Assembly: GCF_018320785.1 (NCBI RefSeq)
Contig: NC_054885.1
Location: 8,754,921 to 8,818,920, forward strand
Length of the DNA: 64,000 nt
Source of the DNA: Cheilinus undulatus
Lineage: Eukaryota > Chordata > Actinopteri > Labriformes > Labridae
Direction of reading: 5' to 3'
Part shown: in pieces, positions 3,401-62,378 of the stretch
Layout of the letters: the number at the start of each line of letters is the position of its first letter
Position numbering within the stretch: the first letter of the stretch is position 1
Position numbers and translations under genes: made by a program
The notes under the pieces: model-generated
Told to the model about the DNA's origin: nothing
The model's input: the letters and a program-made list of their open reading frames with translations, nothing else
The model's database searches: none

Positions 3401-6400
3401 GTCAACCATAGCTGCATTTCTTACAGCTAATTTTTCCTTTATTTGATAGGACAGCTGAAGAGGGACAAGAAATATCAAGAGAGATTTGGAGAAGAGATGC
3501 ACGTCGCCACAGTTGTTATAAAGCAGTAAATGAAAGGCTACACATGGATTTACAGAGGTAGATGACTGGTGATGACTGGTATTTGTCCGTAGACTGTAGA
3601 AAGAATTGGGCAAACGCTGTGTGACGTCAGCCATCTGCTTACAATAGGTGGACTCAAACAGCTCTTGAAGCCAATCTGCGGCGGCTTCCATATTGAAATC
3701 GCGATCTTAGCCGAACTTTGGATCAACCTAATGGCCCACCCACTGGACTCGACTTCCTGTCAGCTAGCTAGCAAGCATTCTGGTTGACAGAAACGTAGCT
3801 TCTGCCTGTCCAGTGAGGTTTTTCCTGAATATGATCTAAACCATTGTGGTACAAAAAAATTCACCCCCGTATGGTCAGAGCACATGAAGACATTAGCTAA
3901 TGAGACACGTTTGGTCTTTTGAACCAGGCTGTAAACCAGTTTATTTCTAATGTAAAAAACAGCTTTTTAACAGGTGTTCAGACTTTAGATGTTTTGCATT
4001 CAGCCTCAAATGGGCACTCATATCGCAATTTTTTGCACTTCTGCATTGGCTTCATTTTTCAGGACTGTAGGTTGCCGCTTGGTCTTAATGCACACTTGTT
4101 CCCGCCATCTCTACTTCTGCATATCTGTGTGTGACCTTTAAAATGTACTGGCTTAGCTAATGTCCTTGGCCCTCTCTGCTTTTATGTCCAGAGGATTTTT
4201 AGAAACGGCACAGAGAAGTTGGCAATAGGAGGACAACTGGTCTCGCCACTCCTCTGCTACTGTTTTGTTTCACCTGCCTCTTCCTCTTCATTGGTTGTTT
4301 AAAAGTGGTTGGCTAACATAAATACAAATACCATTACACCCCTACTCCAAGCAGTACTAAGCCTAGGATTCCGTCTTACTACCAGTGCTCTGAGTACTTT
4401 TACCTATGAGTACGCCAGCACTAATAACTGAGCTGAACCGATGCCCAGTAACTACATTTCCAGAATGCTGTAACAGCAATCTGTTGTGCTGATGTTGTCA
4501 CTGGATGATTTTTGAAAGCTAGGAACCAACCTAAACTCCTTTTATACAGAAGTAGATATCCATCCATCCATTTTCTATACCGCTTGTCCCGTTGGGGGTT
4601 GCGGGGGGCTGGAGCCTATCCCAGGTGTCATTGGGCGAGAGTAGGGGTACACCCTGGACTGGTCGCCAGTCAATCACAGGGCTGACATATAGAGACAGAC
4701 AACCAGACATGCTCAAACTCATACCTATGGCCAATTTAGAGTCCCCAATTAACCAGTTAATTTTCTTTCTAGTGAGGTTTGAAAAAAATCAATTTTACCA
4801 AGATGCTTAATCTTCTATAGATATGTATATTATTTTAAATTTAACATTACATTTGCTATAGTTTGTGTATTGAATCTGCATCTGTAGTTCCTTTGAGCCA
4901 GGCAGTGTTGCAGCACTGTGTGTGCAGCACTCCGGTGTAAATAATCTCCCTCTTTGGATTTGTGTTGTCAGGCATCATTACCTCTGAGTGATTCTTCTGC
5001 ATGGACACCTTCTCATCCTTCAGCATCTCGATCTGCATGCTCAGGTCAGTCTTGGCGACGCCCAGCTCTCCCAGCAGCATCTTCAGCCCGGCGATGTCGG
5101 CCTCCACTGACTGACGCATGGACAGCTCGTTCTCAAACCTACACAGGTTATAAACAGCATAAAGTAAAGTCCAAAAGATTCAGGGTCTAAAGTAATAATG
5201 ATAGAATATAAAATGAAACTTGAAAGAGTGCATGACGAGGTTTAAAGGTGCAGCTGAATCAACAAGAAACTAAATATTTGACTTTTTTATCCTGCTTTTT
5301 CATTATATAATTAGGTAGGATTGGATGGTTCTTAAAATGACCCCTATATTTTTCTTTGTCTCACAAGCTTTAGGTTCAGTCATCCTTTTCAAACCCAAAA
5401 TTTAAGTAGAGGGGCTTGTAGCCAGCAGGGGGGGTGATGTTGCTAATACTGTGGAGCTGTATCTCTGACTGAGTAGTGTGTTTTATGTTTGACATCTATC
5501 AGAAAAGTAAAAGAAAAAGGTGTCATTACTGACTTGACTCTGAAGTCGTCCTGAGCCAGCTTGGCGTTATCAATGCTCAGCATGACTGTTCCTTTGGCCA
5601 GGATGGCGTCCAGGATCTGAAAACAGCAGAGAAAGTACAGCAAATTCACTTTTAAGTTTTGGCTGTGACAGTTTGGGCTAAACGGTCATGTTGTAATGCA
5701 ATGCACAGGGTTTACTACATGTTCATCAAAGAAACAGAAAACTTAAATTTTTGCTTAACAATGAGAAATTAAAATAGAATGTTGCAATGTAAATGCATGA
5801 TTTGTGTGTGCAAACAAAGAGCAAAAATAACAAACCCCAAGGGCCTTGTTTGTGTTCCTTGTTTGCATATGCTGGGCACAAATTGAGGATCAAAACACTA
5901 GATATCTATTTTTACACCACATTTAAATTAAAGGAAATATTTCTTAAGTTTCTGCTGCCAGTCATATTTAAGAATCTGACCAATCATAGCCACTGGTTTT
6001 TAATGAAAAGGAAGCACATGTTTTAGACAAATATAAGAGATGCAGAAATGTTGAAATCAAATTTTTTTTAAATTCTAGCCCACCAGGATCAAATATACAA
6101 AAATCAGTTGACACCTTTGTCAGGCATGTTGGATACTTTTTATTTAATCCATCTGATCCCTGCTATCCCTGATGCTTAATTTCTCTCCATTAATTGCTTT
6201 TTATAGGAGAGAGCTGCCACTGTTAATCATTTGTTTGAAATGTTGAAATATTATCATGATTTTCATTTTAACTGTTTAGAATTTTGTGGTCAGTTACAAC
6301 TCCCAGCAGCACAGAGTCCTTGGAGCAGAGCTTAGACTTCATATGCTACTTTAAACCACATTTCCCATAAGGCCCCTTACTCTCACCTTTCCCTGCAGCT

Positions 6401-6881
6401 CTGCGAAGATGCCAAAGAAGCTGCTGTAGTCCTTGGTGGTGGGTCCGACCTTGCTCTCCACAAACTGCCTGATTTTCAGCTCCAGCTCAGCGTTGGCCTT
6501 CTCCAGGGCAGCAACTTTGGCCAGGTAGGTGGCCAGACGGTCGTTCAGATTTTGCATGGTGAACTTCTCATTGCCGATGACGCTGTCGTCTGCTGCTGCA
6601 CCGAAACCTGCACCTCCACCTGCACCAAAACCTGCACCTCCACCGAAACCTGCACCTGCTCCTCCACCGAAGCCGAAGCCGAAGCTGCTGCCGCCACCGC
6701 CGCCTGCAGCAAAGCTCCTTCCAGCGCTGGAGACCCTCAGGCCTCCTGATCCTCCAGCCACACTGAATGAGCTCATGCCACCTCCCATGGATGCTCGGCC
6801 CATGCCGACACCCATGCCGCCACCCATGCTGCTGCCAAGCATGGAGCTCCGGCCTGAAAAGGCAGACATCACCATAGTCAT
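487..6881 (-). CDS. Keratin A: type I (acidic) keratin, 8 coding exons, complete
   Basis: Type I keratin, a cytoplasmic intermediate filament protein that forms obligate heterodimers with type II keratins. Coding exons on the minus strand: 6881-6387, 5616-5534, 5138-4982, 3083-2922, 2834-2709, 1187-1113, 1032-887 and 649-487, all with GT-AG junctions; 1407 bp, 468 aa. Head (residues 1-103) is Ser/Gly-rich with runs of GGG, GFG and GAGFG, like epidermal keratin heads. The rod (about 104-412) opens with [20 protein letters not shown] and closes with EYRRLLEGE, the helix initiation and termination motifs. The tail (about 413-468) is Ser/Thr-rich and ends [16 protein letters not shown]. Exon lengths 83, 157, 162 and 126 match genes B and C exactly. 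Odd points: the coil 2 end exon is split by an 80-bp intron, and the usual Asp in YLDKV is Ala. The first ATG (6881) is followed by Met codons at residues 3 and 5. Intron 3 (3084-4981) holds repeat fragments. The nearest family name is keratin 13-like; exact orthology is not decided. Confidence 0.93.
3430..3500 (-). repeat. SINE tail fragment in intron 3 of keratin A
   Basis: The stretch 'tttatttgataggacagctg' followed by 'agagggacaagaaat' matches, in reverse orientation, the 3' part of a short interspersed repeat seen in plus orientation at 50885-51090, and the fragments at 26640-26720 and 28855-28935. Only the end is preserved. Confidence 0.45.
4558..4760 (-). repeat. 3' part of an abundant SINE/LINE-like repeat with CCAT tail, intron 3 of keratin A
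   Basis: From the left this reads (ATCC)n, 'ttttctataccgcttgtccc', 'ggctggagcctatcccaggt', 'tggactggtcgccagtcaat', then 'ccaatttagagtccccaatt'. This is the reverse complement of a very common teleost repeat; the copy at 49588-50690 is in the opposite orientation. The element has no coding part here and is degenerate. Confidence 0.7.
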
Positions 6882-6969
6882 GATGAAGGAATCAGATGAG
6901 GAGCCTTCTGTCTGTCTGAACCCCGATGGAGGGAGAGAGGAGAGAAGTGAAGAGATGCCTCTGTGTGCT

Positions 6970-6980
6970 CCTTTTAAAAC
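6970..6980 (-). promoter_or_regulatory. TATA-like box of keratin A
   Basis: The minus strand reads GTTTTAAAAGGAGC about 90-100 bp upstream of the start codon. Keratin C has CCTTAAAAGGAGC and keratin B GTTTAAATAGGAGG at comparable places, so a shared core promoter element is likely. Confidence 0.65.
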
Positions 6981-7031
6981 CGCTCAGGAGGGCTGAGCTG
7001 CAGGTGAGTGGGGTGGGGTCGATGGTACACA

Positions 7032-28200: not shown

Positions 28201-31200
28201 AAAGAAAGCCATGACAAAAATTGCGATAAAGTCTTAAGTTCTGTTTTTCGCTTAAGTTCTGTTTACCTAAAAATGTCCTGTTTTTACTACCTCAAAACTC
28301 ATCCTAACTTAGACTTATTAACCAAGTTAGATGTCATATTTGCCGTGTTTACCACAGCTGTCATATTATCTGTAAAGGTGTGATAAATCTTGTGTCTGTG
28401 CTTCCTCACCTCCTCATGGTTCTTCTTGAGGAAGATGAGCTCCTCCTTCAGACCCTCGATCTGCATGGTCAGGTCCCCCTTTGCCAAGTTCAGCTCATCC
28501 AGGACCCTCTTCAGCCCGGCGATGTCCGCCTCCACCGACATACGCATGGCCAACTCGTTCTCATACCTGCAGGAGAGGAAGAGGGAGAAGATGACATGAG
28601 GATGAGGGGAAGGATGGAGGGCAGGTAGAGGGAGGAAGAGGAGGAGTAGTGAGCTGAGCTAGTGATGCTCCATGGTTATATAAACATCACAAACTATGTG
28701 ACGAGTCAGCCTGAGCTGCTGTCAAACTGTCACATTAAAAACAACACTACACATCATAAATCAGCTGTGAAAATACAAGTATTTACAATCCTGGATCCTG
28801 GTGCGACTACTGCTTAATCATTATGATTAGATCAGTTTGTAATAGTAGTACTAGTACTACATCTTTGCCTTTATTTTACAGGACAGCTGAAGCAAGACAA
28901 TACGAAGGGAGAGAAAACAGGGGAAATATGGTTAGCAGGCTTGCTAAGTTAGTGCAAATTATCCCTTTTTAGTTAGCAAACATATATTTCTTGAACTGTG
29001 TAGAAAAGAACTTCAAAACCTGCTGAATTATGCTGGACTGGTCAAATACTCTAAATGCACCTTTACATAAAGTCTGTGCTTTTAACCTGGGACACTTTCT
29101 GTCTCTGTTGGTGGGACATATCTCACTGCTGCCATCTTCTGGCCACTGGTTTGTAATGCACTTTAGGGCGATGTGCAATAAGAAGACTCAGGAGAAGGCT
29201 AGGAGTTCAGATTTGGGCACCTTGGGCAGAATAATGTGAACAGGAAGAAACTTTAAACACAGAACATTTGGAATCTTCTTAATAATTCTTATTGGCAATT
29301 ACACAATTAAATACATCATATTTGTATTGCATTTTAAAGATTTATGTGTGTTTTAGACTTTTTAAAAATTTGATTCAGTGGACTGAAGGTCTGTTATTCT
29401 CCTTGTGAAGAGTGGCAGATGACACTATGGCTCCCCCCACTGACCAGCCACTGTTACTACCGCTAAAATGAAGTACTCCACTTTTCATGAGTTAAATGTT
29501 AAAAGTGATGCAACATCAGGTCAGCTGTATATTTTTAGCCTCACAGTTATTGAAAAAATAACACTCAAGAGCTTACTCAGTGAGTTCCAGCTGCAGTGTT
29601 GAAGCCGTCTGTCATAATTACAAACTAATTTATGAAATCACATAAAGCCCTGAGGTTAGAACTGCATAATGAAACATTAAAACCTCACCCGCCGCAGCCT
29701 GTCAATCAAAGCACACCTTCAATGAAGGCCGCCTGTCATATTTCTTTATCTATCCAAACCTTGAAGTGTTATTGCGGTGTTGTGGTTACTGACTTGTGTC
29801 CAGACATAACAGTGTAAACAGCTAGCTGACTCAGATGTACTGAGACATTACTTGTCTGGACTTGGGGCTCTAATCTAGATCTGTAACTGTCATCTGTCAA
29901 CTGAAAGGTTAACTAATTTTTATTCTCTGTAGCTTCGACGGCTACTTTACTTTATCCAAAAGCTACTGAATCGGTGGATTCCAGAACTTCTGTTGCAGTG
30001 TTGATGGTTCTACTTAGCATTTGCACTTGTTTCCACTTCAAAAAATACCTTATAATCTGTTATGAGCTTCCACTGGGGCATGTTTGTAACATGAACGCCC
30101 TCTGCTGGGACCCCTGCAGACTTGAGCAGAGCAGCCTGTGTACCTCTAACCTGACACACCAGATAGACTGTTTAATATGTGCTTTGCATGGGATCTATTT
30201 CACTCTCATCTAGGAAAACTCACATTAAAAGTGTACAGGAGGGGCAGGACTTTTTAGAATATTCTCAGAAGGATGAATATTCTGTCTGTTGCATTCATTA
30301 CTGGCCAATCAGAGGGACAAGGTTGTAGATATGCACAGCTCCGGTAAGTAATGTGAGCTCTGCAGGCTACTTGAACAGTCGTGGTTCTTTGCTCTCCTTT
30401 AAATGAATATATGTGGATCAGTTCCAATAAAACTGTCACTATGCCAGGGCTATATCAAAGCTAAACACTACACCGGTGCAGCCATTGCTTCCAGCTTCCA
30501 GAGCAACCGAACCCTGCCTGTAGCTACAGCCTCATCCTCCTCTATTGAAGCTGATTGGTCAGGTCTGTTTTCAGACTTGATTCATTCCTTTCAGATTGGA
30601 GTGCAGCCAAATGGATTTGCCTGATGACAGAAATGGCATCTAGCAAATCCATCTGCTCTGTGCTCATTTTCAACACTAGATCAATGTGGCCTAGTGTTTT
30701 CAGCACTCAGTATCGGTGCAAGAACATCCTCAGTATGGGCTTTATTTCTTGCTGCTGTGCTCACAGCTAAAAAAAGTTAGACTTTTGGAACAGTGCCATA
30801 CTCATCGAAGCCCTCACTGACCAGTTAAATAAAGAAGGGGCCGGTCTTCTTTTGCCATCAACGATAACCGAGGAGAAACTGACCTGATTAGTCTTTTAGT
30901 CACCTACAAGTCCAGGTCTAGAACTGCTGCTATGTCAGGACAGGATTCTTACAGTATTTTGATGTTTTCTTGTGATAAAGAAGGGCATTGTAGGTACATG
31001 GAGCAATTTAGGGATCTAACAGATACAACCAAGGGCAGCAAGAGTCAACTTTTGCAATCTATCAGCAATAAGCACCAGAAAGAGGCACTCTGACAGTGTG
31101 GTTAATTAACCAGAAGTTAGTTATATCATTTAGCTCTGGGAGAGACCTGTAATGCTGCGTCTATTCCCAGAAGAAATGGTGTACACAACTGGTACACTTC

Positions 31201-31854
31201 TACTCCTACATGGAGTGTGAAGACTCACTTGGTCCTGAAGTCTTCTGCAGCCAGGCGGGCGTTGTCAATGCTCAGGTGGACCGATCCATTCAGCCTGATG
31301 GCTGCCTGAATCTGGAGAAGAACAGTCGTTAGTTGAGTTGCTGACTTCTATCTTCGTGACTCAGCTCCCTCCCTCCTGAAAATCTGAACTCATTCACTCA
31401 TGAAAACTCGTGCTCTACCCTGAGTTCTATCCCTGCACCTGTCACCTGTAAGGGTGACGATAAGTGTTACCTTGTCAGTGAGGTCTGCGATGGTGACAAA
31501 GAAGGCGCTGTAGTCTCTGGTGGCAGGGCCGACCTTGCTCTCCACAAACTGCCTGATCTTCAGCTCCAGCTCGGCATTGGCCTTCTCCAGTGCAGCCACC
31601 TTGGCCAGGTAAGAGGCCAGACGGTCGTTCAGGTTCTGCATGGTGAACTTCTCATTGCCGATGATGCTGTCGTCTGCACCCGCCATGCTGAAGGAGGATG
31701 AGAAGCTGCTGCCGCCTCCTGCAGTGGAGATGCGGATCCCTGAATCTCCTGCTCCTCCATACACACTGTGAGATTTCCTTGACATCCCCATGAGTCCCCC
31801 ACCACCCATGGAGGACCTCATAGAGAAGGCAGAGGTGCGAGAGTAGTTGGTCAT
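25266..31854 (-). CDS. Keratin B: type I (acidic) keratin, 8 coding exons, complete
   Basis: Cytoplasmic epithelial intermediate filament protein, partner of a type II keratin. Coding exons on the minus strand: 31854-31471, 31311-31229, 28566-28410, 27191-27030, 26947-26822, 26438-26364, 26269-26130 and 25395-25266, all GT-AG; 1257 bp, 418 aa. The head (1-66) is short and Ser/Gly-rich and lacks the long Gly runs of A. The rod (67-375, 309 aa) opens [20 protein letters not shown] and closes EYRRLLDGE. The tail is Ser/Thr-rich with [15 protein letters not shown] and ends SSGLLQR. The protein is close to A, including YLAKV and the extra intron (94 bp) in the coil 2 end exon, so A and B are probably tandem duplicates. 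Intron 2 (28567-31228) is the longest and holds SINE and MITE fragments. In family terms it is keratin 13-like; orthology not decided. Confidence 0.94.
25545..25740. repeat. Low-complexity 'gtggcaaaaatggt' array in the last intron of keratin B
   Basis: A degenerate purine-rich array of aaaagtggcaaaaaatggtt-like units. The same kind of unit fills the hAT-like element at 34227-35183 and, reversed, 46395-46990. Confidence 0.5.
26640..26720 (-). repeat. SINE tail fragment in intron 5 of keratin B
   Basis: 'agcctttatttaaagacagc' followed by 'gagagacaggaaatatgggg' is the reversed end of the SINE at 50885-51090. Confidence 0.5.
28855..28935 (-). repeat. SINE tail fragment in intron 2 of keratin B
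   Basis: 'cctttattttacaggacagc', then 'gagaaaacaggggaaatatg', matches the fragments at 3430-3500 and 26640-26720 in the same orientation. Confidence 0.5.
30455..30660 (+). repeat. Second short repeat family, copy in intron 2 of keratin B
   Basis: Shares 'gcagccattgcttccagctt', 'gtagctacagcctcatcctc', 'gctgattggtc' and 'gatttgcctgatgacagaaa' with 37240-37440 and 9770-9900. No coding content. Confidence 0.55.
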
Positions 31855-31934
31855 AGTGGACAGTGATGTTCTGCTGTGGCTGGAGGGAACAGAGAGAGAA
31901 GAGGTGAGTGAGGAGCAACAAGCATCTCACCTCC

Positions 31935-43532: not shown

Positions 43533-44753
43533 CACTATATTGCCAAAAGTATTCACTCACCAATCCAAATAATTGAAATCAAGTGTTCCAATCACTTCCA
43601 TGGCCACAGGTGTATAAAATCAAGCACCTAGGCATGCAGACTGTTTCTACAAACATTTGTGAAAGAATGGGTCACTCTCAGTGAATTCCAGCGTGGTACT
43701 GTGATAGGATGCCACCTGTGCAACAAATCCGGTGGTGAAATTTCCTTGCTCCTAAATATTCCACAGTCAACTGTCAGTGGTATTATAACAAAGTGGAAGT
43801 GATTGGGAATGACAGCAACTCAGCCACGAAGCGGTAGGCCACGTAAAATGATGGAGTGTGGTCAGCGGATGCTGAGGCGCATACTGCGCAGAGGTTGCCA
43901 ACTTTCTGCAGAGTCAATGGCTACAGACCTCCAAACTTCATGTGGCCTTCAAATTAGCTCAAGAACAGTGCGTGGAATTGCTTCATGGAATTGCTTTCCA
44001 TGGCTGAGCTGCTGTACCCAAGCCATGCATCATCAAGTGCAATGCAAAGTGTCAGATGCAGTGGTGTAAAGCATGCCGCTACTGGACTCTAGAGCAGTGG
44101 AGACGCATTCTCTGGAGTGATGGATTGTGCTTCTCCATCTGGCAATTTCATCTGCCAGGAGAATGGTACTTGTCTGACAGCATTGTGCCAAGTGTAAAAT
44201 TTGGTGGAGGGGGGATTATGGTGTGGGGTTGTTTTTCAGGAGCTGGGCTTGACCCCTTAGTTCCAGTGAAAGGAACTCTGAATGCTTCAGCATACCAAGA
44301 GATTTTGGACAATTCCATGCTCCCAACTTTGTGGGAACTGTTTGGGGATGGCCCCTTCCTGTTCCATCATGACTGTGCACCAGTGCACAAAGCAAGGTCC
44401 ATAAAGACATGGATGAGAGAGTTTGGTGTGGATGGACTTGACTGGCCTGCACAGAGTCCTGAGCTTAACTCGATCGAACACCTTTGGGATGAATTATAGC
44501 GGAGACTGAGAGCCAGGCCTTCTCGTCCAACATCAGTGTGTGCCCTCACAAATGCGCTTCTGGAAGAAAGGTCAAAAAATCCCATAAACACAATCCTAAA
44601 CCTTGTGGAAAGCCTTCCCAGAAGAATTGAAGCTGTTATAGCTGCAAAGGGTGGAACAACATCATATTAAACCCTATGGATTAAGAATGGGATGCCACTT
44701 AAATTCCATATGTGAGTCAAGGCAGGTGAGCGAATACTTTTGGCAATATAGTG
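43533..44753 (+). mobile_element. Near full-length Tc1-like transposon with broken transposase
   Basis: Both ends read CACTATATTGCCAAAAGTAT then TC(A/G)CTCACC, 28 of 29 matching, flanked by TA on both sides (43531-43532, 44754-44755); 1221 bp. The transposase lies on the plus strand. The DNA-binding part with SGRPRKM (43803-44069) and the catalytic part with [25 protein letters not shown] and [16 protein letters not shown] (44056-44499) are in different frames. A TAG follows HLWDEL, after which the frame resumes to about 44668. The expected length is about 340 aa, so this copy is inactive, but its ends look fresh. Confidence 0.92.
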
Positions 44754-49587: not shown

Positions 49588-50690
49588 GGTGGTGCAGTGG
49601 TTAGTGCTGTTCTCTCCAAAGGTAGGGTCCTGGTTTGATTCCAGGACATTTGCATATTCTCATGTGCAGATTCTCACCCAGTACTCTGACTTCTTCTAGA
49701 CACCACAGACATGCCAGGTAGGTTCATTAGTGATTCTAAAATGACTGCAGATGTGACTGTGAGTGTGTACATTTTAGGACATCCTCAGGTCTCAGAATGA
49801 GGTATCAGTCATCAGGAAAACCTCTGTCATTTATCAGACTAAACAGACTCATTTGTCAAACTAAACGACCTCATTACTCAGGAAAACGTCCGTCAGATTA
49901 AACGACCTCACTTGTCAAACCAAACGCTGTCAGATTAAACGGCATCATTTGTCAAACCAAACGCCGTCACATGAAACGGCCTCAGGTTTCAAAATAGAAG
50001 TCATCAGGCAAAACGGCCTCAGACTAAACTGCCTCAAAATTAAAGATTCGACGGCCAAAATATACAACAACGCCAGCAAAGAACTTTAAGTTTACTCTCG
50101 TATCTAACGCAGCAGAATCGCGAACGTTGGCGTTGTTGTATATTTCGGCCGTCGAATATTGAAGACGTCATATGTACTTCCGTTTCCTTCAAAATAAAAT
50201 AACCTTTCGTGATTTTTTTCGGCCCGAGGCCGTTTTATATGGGGTCGTTTTTTTCTGATGTCGTTTTGTCTGATTAATTTTGAGGCAGTTTAGTCTGAGG
50301 CCGTTTTGCCTGATGACTTTTACTTTGAAACCTGATGCCGTTTAATCTGACGGCGTTTGGTTTGACAAATGATGCCGTTTAATCTGACGGGCTTTGGTTT
50401 GACAAGTGAGGCCGTTTAATCTGACAAAGGTTTTCCTGAATAATGAGGTCGTTTAGTTTGACAAATGAGTCTGTTTGGTCTGATAAATGACAGAGGTTTT
50501 CCTGATGACTGATACCTTATTCTGAGACCTGAGGATGTCCTAAAATGTACACCGCAAGTGTGACTGCTTATCATCTCTATATGTTGGCCCAGTGACTGAA
50601 AGGCAACTGGTCCAGTACTTACCCAACCTCTCATCCACTGGCCCCTAGGATTGGTCCCAGCCTCCAAATGGAATAAGCAGTATGGATAAA
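49588..50690 (+). mobile_element. SINE-like retroposon with Pol III boxes, split by a fold-back element
   Basis: The head 49588-49764 carries an A-box-like TGGTGCAGTGG (49590-49600) and a B-box-like GGTTTGATTCC (49632-49642). The body includes 'ttctcatgtgcagattctca'. After the interruption (49765-50552) the body resumes with 'ctctatatgttggcccagtg', 'ctggtccagtacttacccaa' and 'aagcagtatggataaaggac'. The reversed copy is at 4558-4760. Old and decayed. Confidence 0.7.
49765..50552. mobile_element. 788-bp fold-back element with repeat-built arms
   Basis: Two ~277-bp arms (49765-50042 and 50276-50552) are near-perfect inverted copies, starting GTGTACATTTTAGGACATCC at each end. Each arm is a run of units of about 34-37 bp with the core AAACGRCNTCA and spacers such as CATTTGTCAAAC or GTCAGATT. 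Inside lies a second inverted repeat of 30 bp (50046-50075 with 50128-50157, one mismatch) around a 52-bp loop. The right side has 118 bp (50158-50275) with more units and no left counterpart. No ORF. Target duplication unclear: AGTGTG occurs at the left edge (49762-49767) and a few bases past the right edge (50557-50562). Confidence 0.88.
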
Positions 50691-57357: not shown

Positions 57358-57425
57358 CTGAGAGCCCCCTAGGCTTGTTTGACAACTCAACCTGACCGAC
57401 TCGACCCCCCAGCCTCACGCCAAGC

Positions 57426-57434
57426 CTTAAAAGG
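57426..57434 (+). promoter_or_regulatory. TATA-like box of keratin C
   Basis: CTTAAAAGGAGC, 52-60 bp upstream of the start codon, nearly identical to the keratin A element. Confidence 0.65.
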
Positions 57435-57485
57435 AGCCGGCGTCCCAGCAGTTCCTCACTCTCAGCTCACAGCCAACAACCAGCC

Positions 57486-60400
57486 ATGACCACCTACTCC
57501 ACTCGCAACTTCACCCCCATCAGGAGCTCCATGATGATGGGCCCCTCCTTGACCTCCTCCTCCCGCAGGATGGGCAGCTCCGGAGCTGGCAGCGTGTATG
57601 GAGGAGCTGGAGGCTCAGGAGTCCGTGTCTCCAGGGCTGCCTTCACTTACTCCTCCAACTCTGCCGCCAATGGCTCCCTCGACCTGGCCGATGCTGTCGA
57701 CATCGCCGTCAGCGAGAAGGAGACCATGCAGAACCTGAACGACCGCCTGGCCACCTACCTGGAGAAGGTGCGCAGCCTGGAGAAGGCCAACGGAGACCTG
57801 GAGCTGAAGATCAGGCAGTACCTGGAGAGCAGAGCGGTGCCGGAGGCCCACGACTTCCACAGCTTCAACGTCAAAATCAAAGACCTGCAGGGAAAGGTGA
57901 GAAAAGACACAGAACACCTGAAGTTTCAGCTAAAAACAGCAAAAGAGCTGGCAGAGGGAGCTTCTGAATTTAGCCTCTCAGGTAGAAGCTTCAGTTAATA
58001 ATGTTGGGCTGAATCCCTTTATAGGATTATAGTTTCACTTAGATGCCAAGAGAAAGAGAAAAAGAGAGGTCTTCTCATCTCTAACAAAGTCATTTAGAGG
58101 GTTGTTTGACTACCCAGAGCAGTGACTGCAGCTCCCTTTCCCTCTCTCCCCCATTCTTTTGCTTTGAACCTTCACTTTTCACATCATGTTGGGCCCACCC
58201 TGTGGGTCTTGATCGTGGAACATAAAAGTTTAAGATCAAAATATGAACTTAAAACCACATTTAGCAAGCCTAGAGTGAAAAGATGAGTTCCTTCCCTCAA
58301 ACCTGATTACTGCAGAAACAGTTCTTGGCACAGCGCTGTGTTGCACAAGCTTGTGCAAAACACCTAAATATAGGAAATGCTCTGTAAGAGTGGATGGACC
58401 CTGTGTTTTTCCTCTGATCAAAGAGCGAAGGCACCACACAATTATTTAAACTGCTTTATGACTCTATGTTGTCTCATACTGCTATTTTTAATAGTACTGT
58501 ATACTGCATTTTATTTTAAATGCATCAGACCCAGTCTGCAAGGTTTCAGCATGGAATTTTTTTTAAAATCAGATCACAGACTGATTGATTGTACTTTATT
58601 TACATGTCATGCACTTTAAGAGCGCAAACCTTATGGGTTTATGACACACCAGAAAAGCAATTTCAGTGTACTAAAAAGTCAGCAATGACAAAGTTGCATT
58701 ATCTATTCTCAGAGTAGTATTAAACAAAACATTCTGATTTTTCTCCCAGGCTTTGCTGATAAAATCTACTATAAAAAGTTTCCTTTTCCAAAGCAAAACT
58801 CAAGTTTAAAAAAGAATGGATCTAAAAAATGCCTTAAAGGACCGGCTCATTGACCTTTAGTATGGTGTCAGAGAGAGCCATTGAAGGATTAAATCTGGAA
58901 TAAAAGGGGAAAAAATTAAATGAAAGACACAACGTGTTAAGTTTGACCTGAAAACATCAGAACAGTTGGTACAGGTTAGCATCTTTGCCCTGAATTTAGC
59001 CTCACAGGTGACGCAGAGAAGCAGAAGCTTTAGGTGTTAATGTTGGCTGAATTATTTCACAGCTGTCCACGTATCTGCTGTTTCTTTGGTATTTTAGATT
59101 TCTCTTGTGTTTGCTGTGTGTGTAGTTTAACAGCTAAAACTCATTTTTCCTTTAGGATCAGTAAAGTATCCATCTAATCCAACCTAATCTAATCTAATCT
59201 ATTTGATGTAGGCTTTTATCAGATATAGATCTATAGCTTCACTTAGATGCCAAGTATGGAAAGCTTTTGTTTTTTCGTTTTTCTTTTACCTGAAAATATA
59301 AACCAAAGGTAAAGTAGGGAGTAAAACAGAAATGAAGTAGTATAAATGGAAAGAAAAAACTACATAAAATAATAATATAGCAATATTAAGACCCACCGAC
59401 CACTGAGTCAGCTGATTGACAGCTTGACCTTAAAAGGTAACATGAAAGAATGAACACAAACAAAATTATAGCATTAGATAAGTTACAATTTAGATTTATA
59501 CACAATTATTTATGACTAACTTATATAATCTGAACAAACATTAACTCTTTTGTATTTACTAGTATGTAATAAATTGATTAATACTAAATAAATAAATAAG
59601 GTAACTTTTAAAAACTATATTTTAAGGATTTTTAGCAGGTATTCTGTTTTTATTTTTCAGTTTTTGCTGAATTATTTTATCATTGGCACTTCTGTGCCTC
59701 CACAGTGTATGCTGCACTTTTCGGTCTAATCTGTTTGTTTGAGTATAATGCTGTTTGTTGAAAGTCTTACTTGTTAATTAAGCACTCTAGCATAATATAA
59801 CTAAATAAATAATGACAGTTTTGTTTTCCTCTCATTATCTGACAGTTTTTTGCTTCACCATTTACCAGCAGAAGTCAACATAAATGTATATTTATGCTGA
59901 TTTTTATTGCATCAGTTTCTCTAAATCTGTGGGCATTAAGTTTGTGAGCAAGCCTCTGGTTGATGAACATGAAGTTACATAACAGCGCTGATATGTTGAT
60001 ATAGAGGCGCATGTATGTATGACTGTTAACATGTAAATATGTTCAGGTGTTCACTTCTCATTTTTATGTTCAGTCCTCTGTAAATATGTGCTCTTGGCGT
60101 TTGCATGAAATCATGTTTGACTTTTAAAACAAATGTAAAGATGCGATGAGAGACAGCTCAAAGTGGACAAACCTGTTGGATTAAACAGAGGAGTGTTTGT
60201 GTTTGGGGGGAAGGGGGGCGGGGTCAGCAGGCAACTCGTGACTTTAACCGAGAGGAGAGACAAAGTTAATAGCCTGAAGATACACACATTTGGATTGTGT
60301 TTTCCTTAACTTGTTTAAATTTAAAGGTTAATGTTGTGTTTATATAACTTTAAACATTATTAACAGGTTTTAAAGAATTTGATTTTTAATTCCTCTTAGT

Positions 60401-62378
60401 TTCTCAGTCTTTAAAAAGTGTTTGAAGCTCCAGCTGGTGGTCGAAACGCTTCACTGATGTGTCATATCTGTAGTAGAAGTTGATCTTCTACGGCAGGTGT
60501 GTCAAAATCAATCACAGCAGGGGCCAGATTTATGAATTAAGGTGTAACCTGAGGAGCCAAACAGGGTCAACATTCAACCATAAACTGTCAACCGGATTTT
60601 CACCAGTAATGAAATATGGAAAAAGGCATGATGATACAAGATTTTGAGATTAAAAAAGTCCAAATTTTAAATTTAATGGCTCAAAAGCTGAGATGGAATC
60701 TCAAACTTGTTTGTCAAAAAGGTCAAAACATGACTTTAATAGTCAAAACAAAGTTTTTAAAAGGCAATATCTGACATAGAAATTCGAAATCACAGATTTT
60801 CTAGGTTTAAATATAAGATAAAACTCAAAATCATTAGTTTATAAGGTAAAAATAAGAGATATGAGTCAAATCATGAGTTTTAAAGTTCAAAATATAAGAT
60901 AAAATCCGAAAGTCATGACTTAAAAAGAGACAACATAGAGATAAAAGCCAAAATAATTAATTTAAATGGTCAAAATGTGAGATAAATTCCAAGTAATGAG
61001 TTTAAAAGGTTGAAATAGGACTTAAACTTTAAAAATGCCATTCTAAAAGGTTAAAATATGAGATAAAAAGTCAAAGTCATGAATTGTAAAGTTCTAAATA
61101 TGGAATAAAAAGCTAAAATCTTACGTTTAAGTGGTAATTGTGAAATACAAAATTGAAAATCTGAAATGAAAACACAAATTAATTTTATTTTGCATTTGGC
61201 CCCCAGGCTTTGAGTTTGACACCCCTGTTCTACGGTTAAGATATTCATGCATTCTTGTCATCCTTCTGTTCAGATTCACCTCGCTGCTCGTGGAAACGCT
61301 GCGCTCATCCTCGCCATCGACAATGCCAAACTCGCCACAGACGACTTCAAAATCAAGTGAGTGTAAAACCTAGATTTTTTTGACTCTCAATCCAATCAGA
61401 TGAATAGGTTACATGTAGTGAATTTATTTTTGTGTTAAATCTTTAGGTATGAGAACGAGCTGGTCATGCGTCAGTCCGTGGAGGCTGACATCATGGGGCT
61501 GAAGAAAGTCCGGGATGATCTGACTCTGAGCCGGGCCGACCTGGAGCAGCAGGTGGAGGGCCTGAAGGAGGAGATGATGCAGCTGAAGAGGAACCACGAA
61601 GAGGTGAGAACTAAAACAAAGCAGACACAGACATGGAAGTATGTACATAAAATAAGAGACGGAGTAACCGGCTTCTTCCTGTAGGACCTGCTGGCTCTGC
61701 GGGCTCAGGTGGGCTGTCAGGTGAACGTGGAGGTAGACGCTGCACCCCAGGAAGACTTGGCCGCTGTCATGGCTGGAATCAGACAACACTACGAGGACGT
61801 CGCTGCCAAGAACCGCAAAGAACTCGAGACCTGGTTCCAGGCTAAGGTGAGACCCTGCTGACTCTAATGGCCATTTTGATTACAGATTCTTCATAATAAA
61901 TCCTTATATTGGATCAATAACATTATCGACTGTTGCTGTTTGCAGACGGCAGAGCTAAACAAAGAGGTGGCTGTGAGCTCCACAACGCTGCAGACGTCAA
62001 AGAGTGAGATCGGAGAGATCAAACGGACGGTCCAGACTCTGGAGATCAAACTGCAGGCCCAGATCAGCAAGGTACCCAACACTGGATATGTACTCATACA
62101 GTACACACAGACACACATACATAAAGAATAAACAAATACAACACTCCTCTCTGACAGAAAAGAGCTCTGGAGATGACACTGGAAGAAACCAGGAGCCGCT
62201 ACGCTAACATGCTAGCAGGCTACCAGAAGCAGGTGATTTCCCTGGAGGAGCAGCTGACCCAGCTGAGGGCCGACCTGGAGAACCAGAGGGTCCTGTTTGT
62301 CGAACTGCTGGACATCAAGACTAGACTGGAGATGGAGATTGCAGAGTACAGGAGGCTGCTGGAGGGGGAGACTGAGAC
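57486..62378 (+). CDS. Keratin C: type I (acidic) keratin, first 6 coding exons; 3' end beyond window
   Basis: Acidic keratin, heterodimer partner of a type II keratin in epithelial filaments. Coding exons: 57486-57896, 61274-61356, 61447-61603, 61685-61846, 61946-62071 and 62158-62378, GT-AG throughout; 1160 bp, 386 complete codons plus 2 nt. The start has good context (AGCCATGACC). The head (1-75) is Ser/Gly-rich with [15 protein letters not shown], typical of type I. The rod (76-384, 309 aa) opens [20 protein letters not shown] and closes EYRRLLEGE. The sixth exon is whole (221 bp), unlike A and B. The short tail exon is not found in the remaining 1.6 kb, so it should follow after 64000. 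Intron 1 is long (3377 bp) with a hAT-like element; the other introns are 81-99 bp. It is more distant from A and B than they are from each other and lies on the opposite strand. Confidence 0.94.
59150..59205 (+). repeat. LINE tail remnant in intron 1 of keratin C
   Basis: 'ctttaggatcagtaaagtat' followed by 'ccaacctaatctaatctaat' resembles the 3' tail with short repeats of a LINE seen reversed at 54185-54245. Confidence 0.4.
60494..61227. mobile_element. hAT-like element with tandem array in intron 1 of keratin C
   Basis: The left end is CAGGTGTGTCAAAATCAATC and the right end, reversed, CAGGGGTGTCAAACTCAAAG; both continue into a GGGGCCA/GGGGGCCA block. TTCTACGG flanks both sides exactly (60486-60493, 61228-61235). 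The core (about 60640-61190) is a degenerate array of ~40-bp units (gagtttaaaaggtcaaaata, then gagataaaagtc). No transposase. Confidence 0.9.

Follow-up and report, generated by a model that had tools for sequence, protein, structure and literature searches.

The fold-back element at positions 49768-50556 (789 bp) of the window, that is, of the whole 64-kb stretch of DNA analysed here (G000:C21:8754921-8818920, from a fish genome of 1.17 Gb), is probably a non-autonomous cut-and-paste DNA transposon of the IS3EU/GingerRoot type, in fold-back form and moved in trans. We favour this reading because TA..TA ends and a 6-bp target site duplication (TSD), both found here, are the stated marks of IS3EU/GingerRoot elements (PMC10045372); TAYGG..CCRTA ends with 6-bp TSDs have been described for fungal IS3EU (PMC12730594). 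The assignment rests on the ends and the TSD as stated in these two papers, and not on a comparison of the sequence with a named family. Broadly, the family shows inverted ends TACRG..CYGTA, 6-bp TSDs and dispersed copies, with no transposase-sized frame outside the arrays in the copies scanned. Since ends and TSD match the little-studied IS3EU group, this is a real element of unusual build rather than one outside all known kinds, and what is new is a fold-back family with IS3EU-type ends. The original prediction recognised no named transposon family, but the ends do point to IS3EU/GingerRoot. The features of the window copy, and of the empty site to which it was compared, are as follows:

49768-50556 (no strand): whole fold-back element, 789 bp, from TAC... 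to ...CCGCA; the family end is TACRG..
49762-49767 (no strand): left TSD copy, AGTGTG, identical to 50557-50562; the empty site lies in a paralogous SINE-like copy
50557-50562 (no strand): right TSD copy, AGTGTG, partner of 49762-49767
49765-50043 (plus strand): left arm as delimited by repeat search, TCA-started 15-mers and 7-mers, with five exact AAACGRCNTCA cores
50274-50552 (minus strand): right arm, the left arm inverted; 95% complementary, ungapped
50045-50046 (no strand): scar of a deletion that removed 116-117 bp from the inner left arm, a segment present in L010, L011 and L012
50040-50163 (no strand): central palindrome, arms 50040-50075 and 50128-50163 (36 nt, 92%), 52-nt loop
50163-50187 (plus strand): remnant of the centre block, which reads TGACGTCA and ACTTCCGCTTCC in L010
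50216-50273 (minus strand): inner right-arm units whose left counterpart is lost, from unit parse and alignments
4604-4754 (minus strand): unoccupied host SINE-like copy, 105/151 identical to the joined flanks, ungapped at the junction, with one gap 11 bases after it

Structure of the Element

The near-identical inverted arms of about 277 bp described in the original prediction are present: they measure 279 nt each and pair with 15 mismatches and no gaps around a 230-nt spacer. The bounds proposed there (49765-50552) do locate the element, slightly shifted from its true span. Folded as single-stranded DNA, 49768-50556 reaches -344.9 kcal/mol, versus a mean of -85.9 (sd 5.4) for 20 shuffles. 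Long inverted arms with internal tandem units, together with a short middle domain, give the molecule the structure of a fold-back element. An assembly artefact is unlikely, because relatives built in the same way are found on other chromosomes and there is an empty site. The window copy is altered at both tips: its right end reads CCGCA where the family has CCGTA (CA for TA), and its left tip is read as missing 7 bp.

Both arms are arrays of units starting with TCA, comprising 15-mers of the TCAGAYNAAACGGCC type and 7-mers of the TCATTTG type. In total, 23 fifteen-mers and 14 seven-mers were parsed at 49765-50060 and 50216-50552; the fifteen-mers start with TCA by definition of the parse, and beyond this they conserve AA at positions 8-9 (23/23) and C at position 11 (21/23), with AAACGRC present in 11 of the 23. 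Units of 15 and 7 bp yield periods of 22 and 37 bp, and the groups of 34-37 bp reported earlier correspond to 15+22; the unit count and spacing given there (cores every 15-20 bp) are thus near but inexact, the actual repeat being the 15/7-bp TCA unit. The exact core AAACGRCNTCA occurs five times on the plus strand (49863, 49900, 49937, 49974 and 50011, 37 bp apart) and six times on the minus strand within 50256-50444; elsewhere in the 64 kb it is found once (55055).

Steps of 7, 15 or 22 bp from one TCA to the next make up 18 of 23 in the left arm and 19 of 25 in the right arm, while shuffled arms (300 each) contain a mean of 1.0 such steps, with maxima of 6 (left) and 5 (right). In a test on 15 hand-picked segments, the 7/15 spacing also appeared in relatives whose arms are built of other units, i.e., the left side of L030 (37/49 steps), L032 (33/47) and L047 (40/94), with shuffle maxima of 11, 10 and 14, respectively. 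It is weaker in L029 (13/40, shuffle maximum 9), and the right side of L030, with 5/13, is no higher than its highest shuffle (5). Since the spacing is kept where the sequence changes, the arrays would be best explained as repeated protein contacts; a spacing common to elements with different units favours a protein-binding array, whose sites may be those of the transposase.

The relatives L010, L011 and L012 (1049, 876 and 1136 bp) are palindromic almost throughout, with a short loop, and L010 is identical to its own reverse complement at 894 of 947 aligned positions. With respect to these three elements, 116-117 bp are missing from the window copy at 50045/50046, and its arrays differ from theirs in blocks of about 30, 37 or 74 bp. 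The 230-nt spacer is therefore made up of the centre and of an inner right arm that lost its left counterpart to a deletion. The central palindrome is read as what is probably the element's own centre. A nested second MITE at 50040-50163 was considered and rejected, the palindrome being continuous with the outer arms in L010 and L012. In a search with the centre, all 12 first-look candidates were scored, and the 12 places found all lie inside loci of the fold-back family. As a side observation, the family centre (L010:4146-4335 and L012:4163-4347) carries mirror-image ETS-like blocks together with TGACGTCA, in two copies in L010 and one exact copy in L012. We take TGACGTCA to be CRE-like and ACTTCCGCTTCC to be ETS-like, and these blocks presumably resemble promoter sites; the centre of L010 and L012 may be the relic of an ancestral promoter.

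Copies and Relatives in the Host Genome

The mobile nature of the element, which had been proposed together with a genome search and an alignment of ends as ways to check it, was borne out by multiple dispersed copies with common ends and by an empty site. The whole-genome search gave at least 128 matches (40 of 86 candidates scored); in our grouping of these 128, the similarity extends beyond the tip at no fewer than 20 other places, and elsewhere it is confined to about 44-76 bp of tip. Relatives were extracted at 38 loci. Tip patterns allowing up to three mismatches were found at 107 and 120 places, and the exact 20-base tip pattern at 49 places, with no occurrence of the reversed controls in either case; the wider group of termini thus amounts to at least 120 in the host genome. 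This group is heterogeneous beyond the tip. L030, L036 and L048 combine the same tip with arms of TCAGGTC/TCAGGAAAAAAGGCA-type units, L047 consists of the same tip and a single long array of 1869 bp, and ten single-ended loci, from a set of 18 extracted loci, show the tip followed by array units over varying lengths, which are short in L034, L040 and L041.

Two loci on C18 show local rearrangement. A stretch of about 20 kb at C18:38304603-38324865 (L037 and L048) contains four tips of the wider group; the L037 and L048 elements have similar flanking sequences, and the two flanks of L048 resemble each other when one of them is inverted, as though a unit comprising the element had undergone duplication and inversion. 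L038 (C18:34220603-34221918), on the other hand, contains four consecutive left-hand tips in steps of 261-325 bp, with flanks shared in alternation, and here an element plus its flank appears to have been duplicated locally in tandem.

The likeness of the two arms had been taken as a sign of recent insertion or of conversion between them, and the intact CG cores as a sign of youth; neither suggestion finds support. The divergence between the two arms of the window copy is 4.6% in the terminal 130 bp, versus a mean of 6.2% between ends of different copies (166 comparisons among 19 hand-picked ends, range 0.8-15.3%), and the divergence between arms within each of five copies is 0.8, 4.6, 6.2, 7.8 and 9.3%. 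In fact, an arm of another copy (C14:3614656-3614927) is 93% identical to positions 1-272 of the query, against 95% for the window's own other arm, and 5 of the 15 arm mismatches fall at CpG of one arm. As ends of different copies diverge about equally little, the identity of the arms would reflect conservation across the family and dates no insertion; conversion between arms is not needed to explain it.

Coding Capacity and Search for a Transposase

A frame scan of 15 complete elements revealed no transposase, so the long relative with the same ends and a transposase frame, which the original prediction advised looking for, was not found among them. Their longest stop-to-stop frames span 54-190 aa (190 aa in L030, 58-129 aa in the others), and the long ones, including that of L030, are read as translated array. 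Among the 116 termini listed, 12 pairs of convergent neighbouring tips lie less than 20 kb apart, with spans of 426-3828 bp. Two were considered as autonomous partners and rejected: the 3828-bp pair contains two separate elements, and the 1869-bp pair is the array of L047, with no frame above 105 aa. Besides, L043 contains, 1.1 kb away from its tip, a frame with a match to HTH_Tnp_Tc3_2, and this frame is taken for a neighbouring Tc1-type element.

The rva_4 profile (PF24764), picked as a likely integrase-type model and assumed by us to cover the IS3EU transposase, matches 62 places in the genome. None of them lies within 200 kb of the 116 termini listed, the nearest being at 209 kb; 7 and 20 of the places matched by the two tip patterns stand outside this list. 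Inspection by eye of 1.2 kb of sequence adjoining the best rva_4 copy showed no end of the family type. Five rva_4-adjoining places are C6:26792500, C21:33105133, C9:44179818, C7:4256695 and C11:18004044; the other four match the C6 sequence at 96-100% over the full 1.2 kb, and the integrase-type element linked to rva_4 thus looks as though it may have multiplied lately.

These results bear on the most durable of the alternatives, namely a lineage outside IS3EU with a 6-bp TSD, TA..TA ends and an undiscovered transposase of its own. We regard it as improbable: no transposase with these ends was found near the 116 termini listed, and arms of arrayed units go unmentioned in the portion of the IS3EU literature covered, but ends and TSD length both fit what is stated for IS3EU. 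Only 17 of the 45 IS3EU families in Repbase are autonomous (PMC10045372).

Termini, Target Site Duplication and Empty Site

Family termini read TACRGTGTACATTTTAGGACATCC, and TSDs are 6 bp long, often of the form C....G. Column counts over 53 termini from 40 sequences, which are partly non-independent (L038 alone contributes five), gave T at -4 in 48/53 and A at -3 in 49/53; outside this TA, C was found at -10 in 37/53 and G at -5 in 34/53, a preference that is the mark of a 6-bp TSD beside a TA-starting element. In the same set, the fifth base from the tip is G in 32, A in 19 and T in 2 termini, and the base before it is C in 39, T in 7, A in 4 and G in 3. Tips TACGG/TATGG and TACAG are thus both found, a partial fit to the TAYGG..CCRTA of fungal IS3EU.

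The outer 6-mers of 13 two-ended elements agree at 73% of positions, a value reached by none of 20,000 permutations (maximum 60%); the 13 pairs were hand-picked, and the window copy, with its rearranged left tip, was left out. Seven of the 13 pairs match at 5-6 of 6 bases (6/6 in L011, L023, L036 and L044; 5/6 in L012, L030 and L031), and the remaining six at 0-4 (four in L010, L015 and L038, three in L033 and L047, none in L045). L048, found later and outside the permutation set, matches at 2/6. Among other frames, those nested with the 6-bp frame scored 0.65, the tip palindromes TA and GTAC 1.0 and 0.75, and the rest 0.08-0.31; the high TA and GTAC scores are expected from any inverted end starting with TA.

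The window copy, which sits inside an older repeat that we label SINE-like, is flanked by AGTGTG on both sides, provided that the 7-bp loss at its left tip is allowed for. Among three hits of the joined flanks, only the SINE-like copy at 4604-4754 spans the junction, and this empty site has a single AGTGTG, as opposed to two in the filled site. The search for an empty site recommended in the original prediction was therefore successful within the same window.

Initially, TA was read as the only TSD, an interpretation dropped after the terminus column counts and the 6-mer permutation test. The corresponding alternative, a fold-back MITE of the Tc1/mariner type that starts with CRGTG and has TA as its TSD, seems quite unlikely. 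TA stands at nearly all termini (its frame score of 1.0 being inevitable for TA-starting inverted ends), the flanks of L048 would fit a TA target, and Tc1-type frames occur nearby (DDE_3 match at 44011-44496); nonetheless, six bases outside the TA are duplicated at the 13 paired loci beyond all 20,000 permutations, and AGTGTG occurs once in the empty site versus twice in the filled one; together, these two results largely refute this reading.

An affiliation with Mutator, to which most described fold-backs belong, is less credible still. Arms of internal tandem repeats, rearranged copies and no conserved open reading frame recall Tetris as described (PMC4079207), yet Tetris has TSDs of 8-10 bp, and here comparing the flanks next to the TA boundary in frames of 8 and 9 bp gives 0.19 identity, the sole scoring 8-bp frame (0.65, offset 1) being one that contains the 6-bp frame. 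That the sequence is instead a structure of the host (a regulatory hairpin, the seed of a satellite or a source of small RNAs) and no transposon can practically be set aside, given that its strong hairpin and the CRE- and ETS-like centre of its relatives are confronted with dispersed copies, precise ends, TSDs, an empty site and an Rfam scan of the window that gave no match at gathering score.

ISL2EU, considered for a 2-bp TSD, was dropped, its TSD being described as AT inside AATT (PMC4482050). Dada was also rejected, as a terminal inverted repeat is present and the window copy is inserted in a SINE-like repeat. Overall, TA..TA ends with a 6-bp TSD speak against Mutator, Tc1/mariner and Dada, and it is the IS3EU/GingerRoot reading that we follow below.

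Relationship to Known Systems and Proposed Mechanism

Fold-back elements include FB, the sea urchin TU elements and Tm1. Most fold-back elements have been placed in Mutator, with exceptions (PMC4079207), and long, internally repetitive inverted arms are known outside Mutator from Galileo (PMC3573991), which resembles the present family in this respect, but belongs to the P superfamily. Tetris shares with it long inverted arms of short tandem units, a variable unit number and no conserved open reading frame, and differs in its 8-10 bp TSD, against 6 bp and TA..TA ends here (PMC4079207). Dada elements also show 6-bp TSDs in some cases; unlike the present family, they have no terminal inverted repeats and insert into small-RNA genes (PMC3706591). 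With IS3EU/GingerRoot, the likeness extends to TA..TA termini, a TAYGG-like tip in many copies, the 6-bp TSD and the many non-autonomous families, whereas a near-palindrome with arms of 15/7-bp units goes unmentioned in what was covered of that source (PMC10045372). In the IS3EU literature, as far as covered, no description of fold-back arms was found, which does not prove their absence.

Mechanistically, an IS3EU-like integrase-type (DDE) transposase would move the fold-back element in trans, and the TCA-started 15-mers and 7-mers would act as repeated contacts for this enzyme or for an accessory DNA-binding protein. Arm length may have been gained or lost by whole units, as suggested by the block differences of 30, 37 and 74 bp with respect to relatives, and the expansion of the binding array along with loss of the gene would have led to the near-palindrome. 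IS3EU-type ends on a fold-back family would show that this form has also arisen in an integrase-like lineage. From a practical point of view, TACRGTGTACATTTTAGGACATCC together with a 6-bp TSD (often CNNNNG) offers a marker for annotation, given that such repeats could pass for TA-type MITEs.

A wider proposal, which we advance tentatively and hold to be somewhat less likely true than false, is that fish IS3EU-type transposons have given rise to diverse fold-backs with a common spacing code instead of a common unit sequence: TCA contacts at distances of 7 and 15 bp, each pair adding up to 22 bp, in units of the AAACGGCC type, of the AAAAAAGGC type or mixed. If so, the transposase or its partner would read the spacing and the TCA, leaving the arms free to change in sequence and to lengthen, and this would be a third independent route to the fold-back form, after Mutator and P. 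The 7/15 spacing across differing units leads to a testable prediction of the way in which element ends are recognised by an IS3EU transposase.

Other Features of the Window

No Rfam family (gathering score) or tRNA was found in the 64-kb window. Exon-like frames occur on both strands at 6351-6983, 28299-28658, 31390-31926 and 57396-57998, with Filament family matches at 57396-57995 and 31393-31926, and are interpreted as exons of a cluster of type I keratins. A 163-aa frame at 44008-44499 matches DDE_3 and represents a Tc1-type transposase remnant, and a tandem repeat with a 40-bp unit (5.1 copies, 69% matches) is located at 60809-61017.
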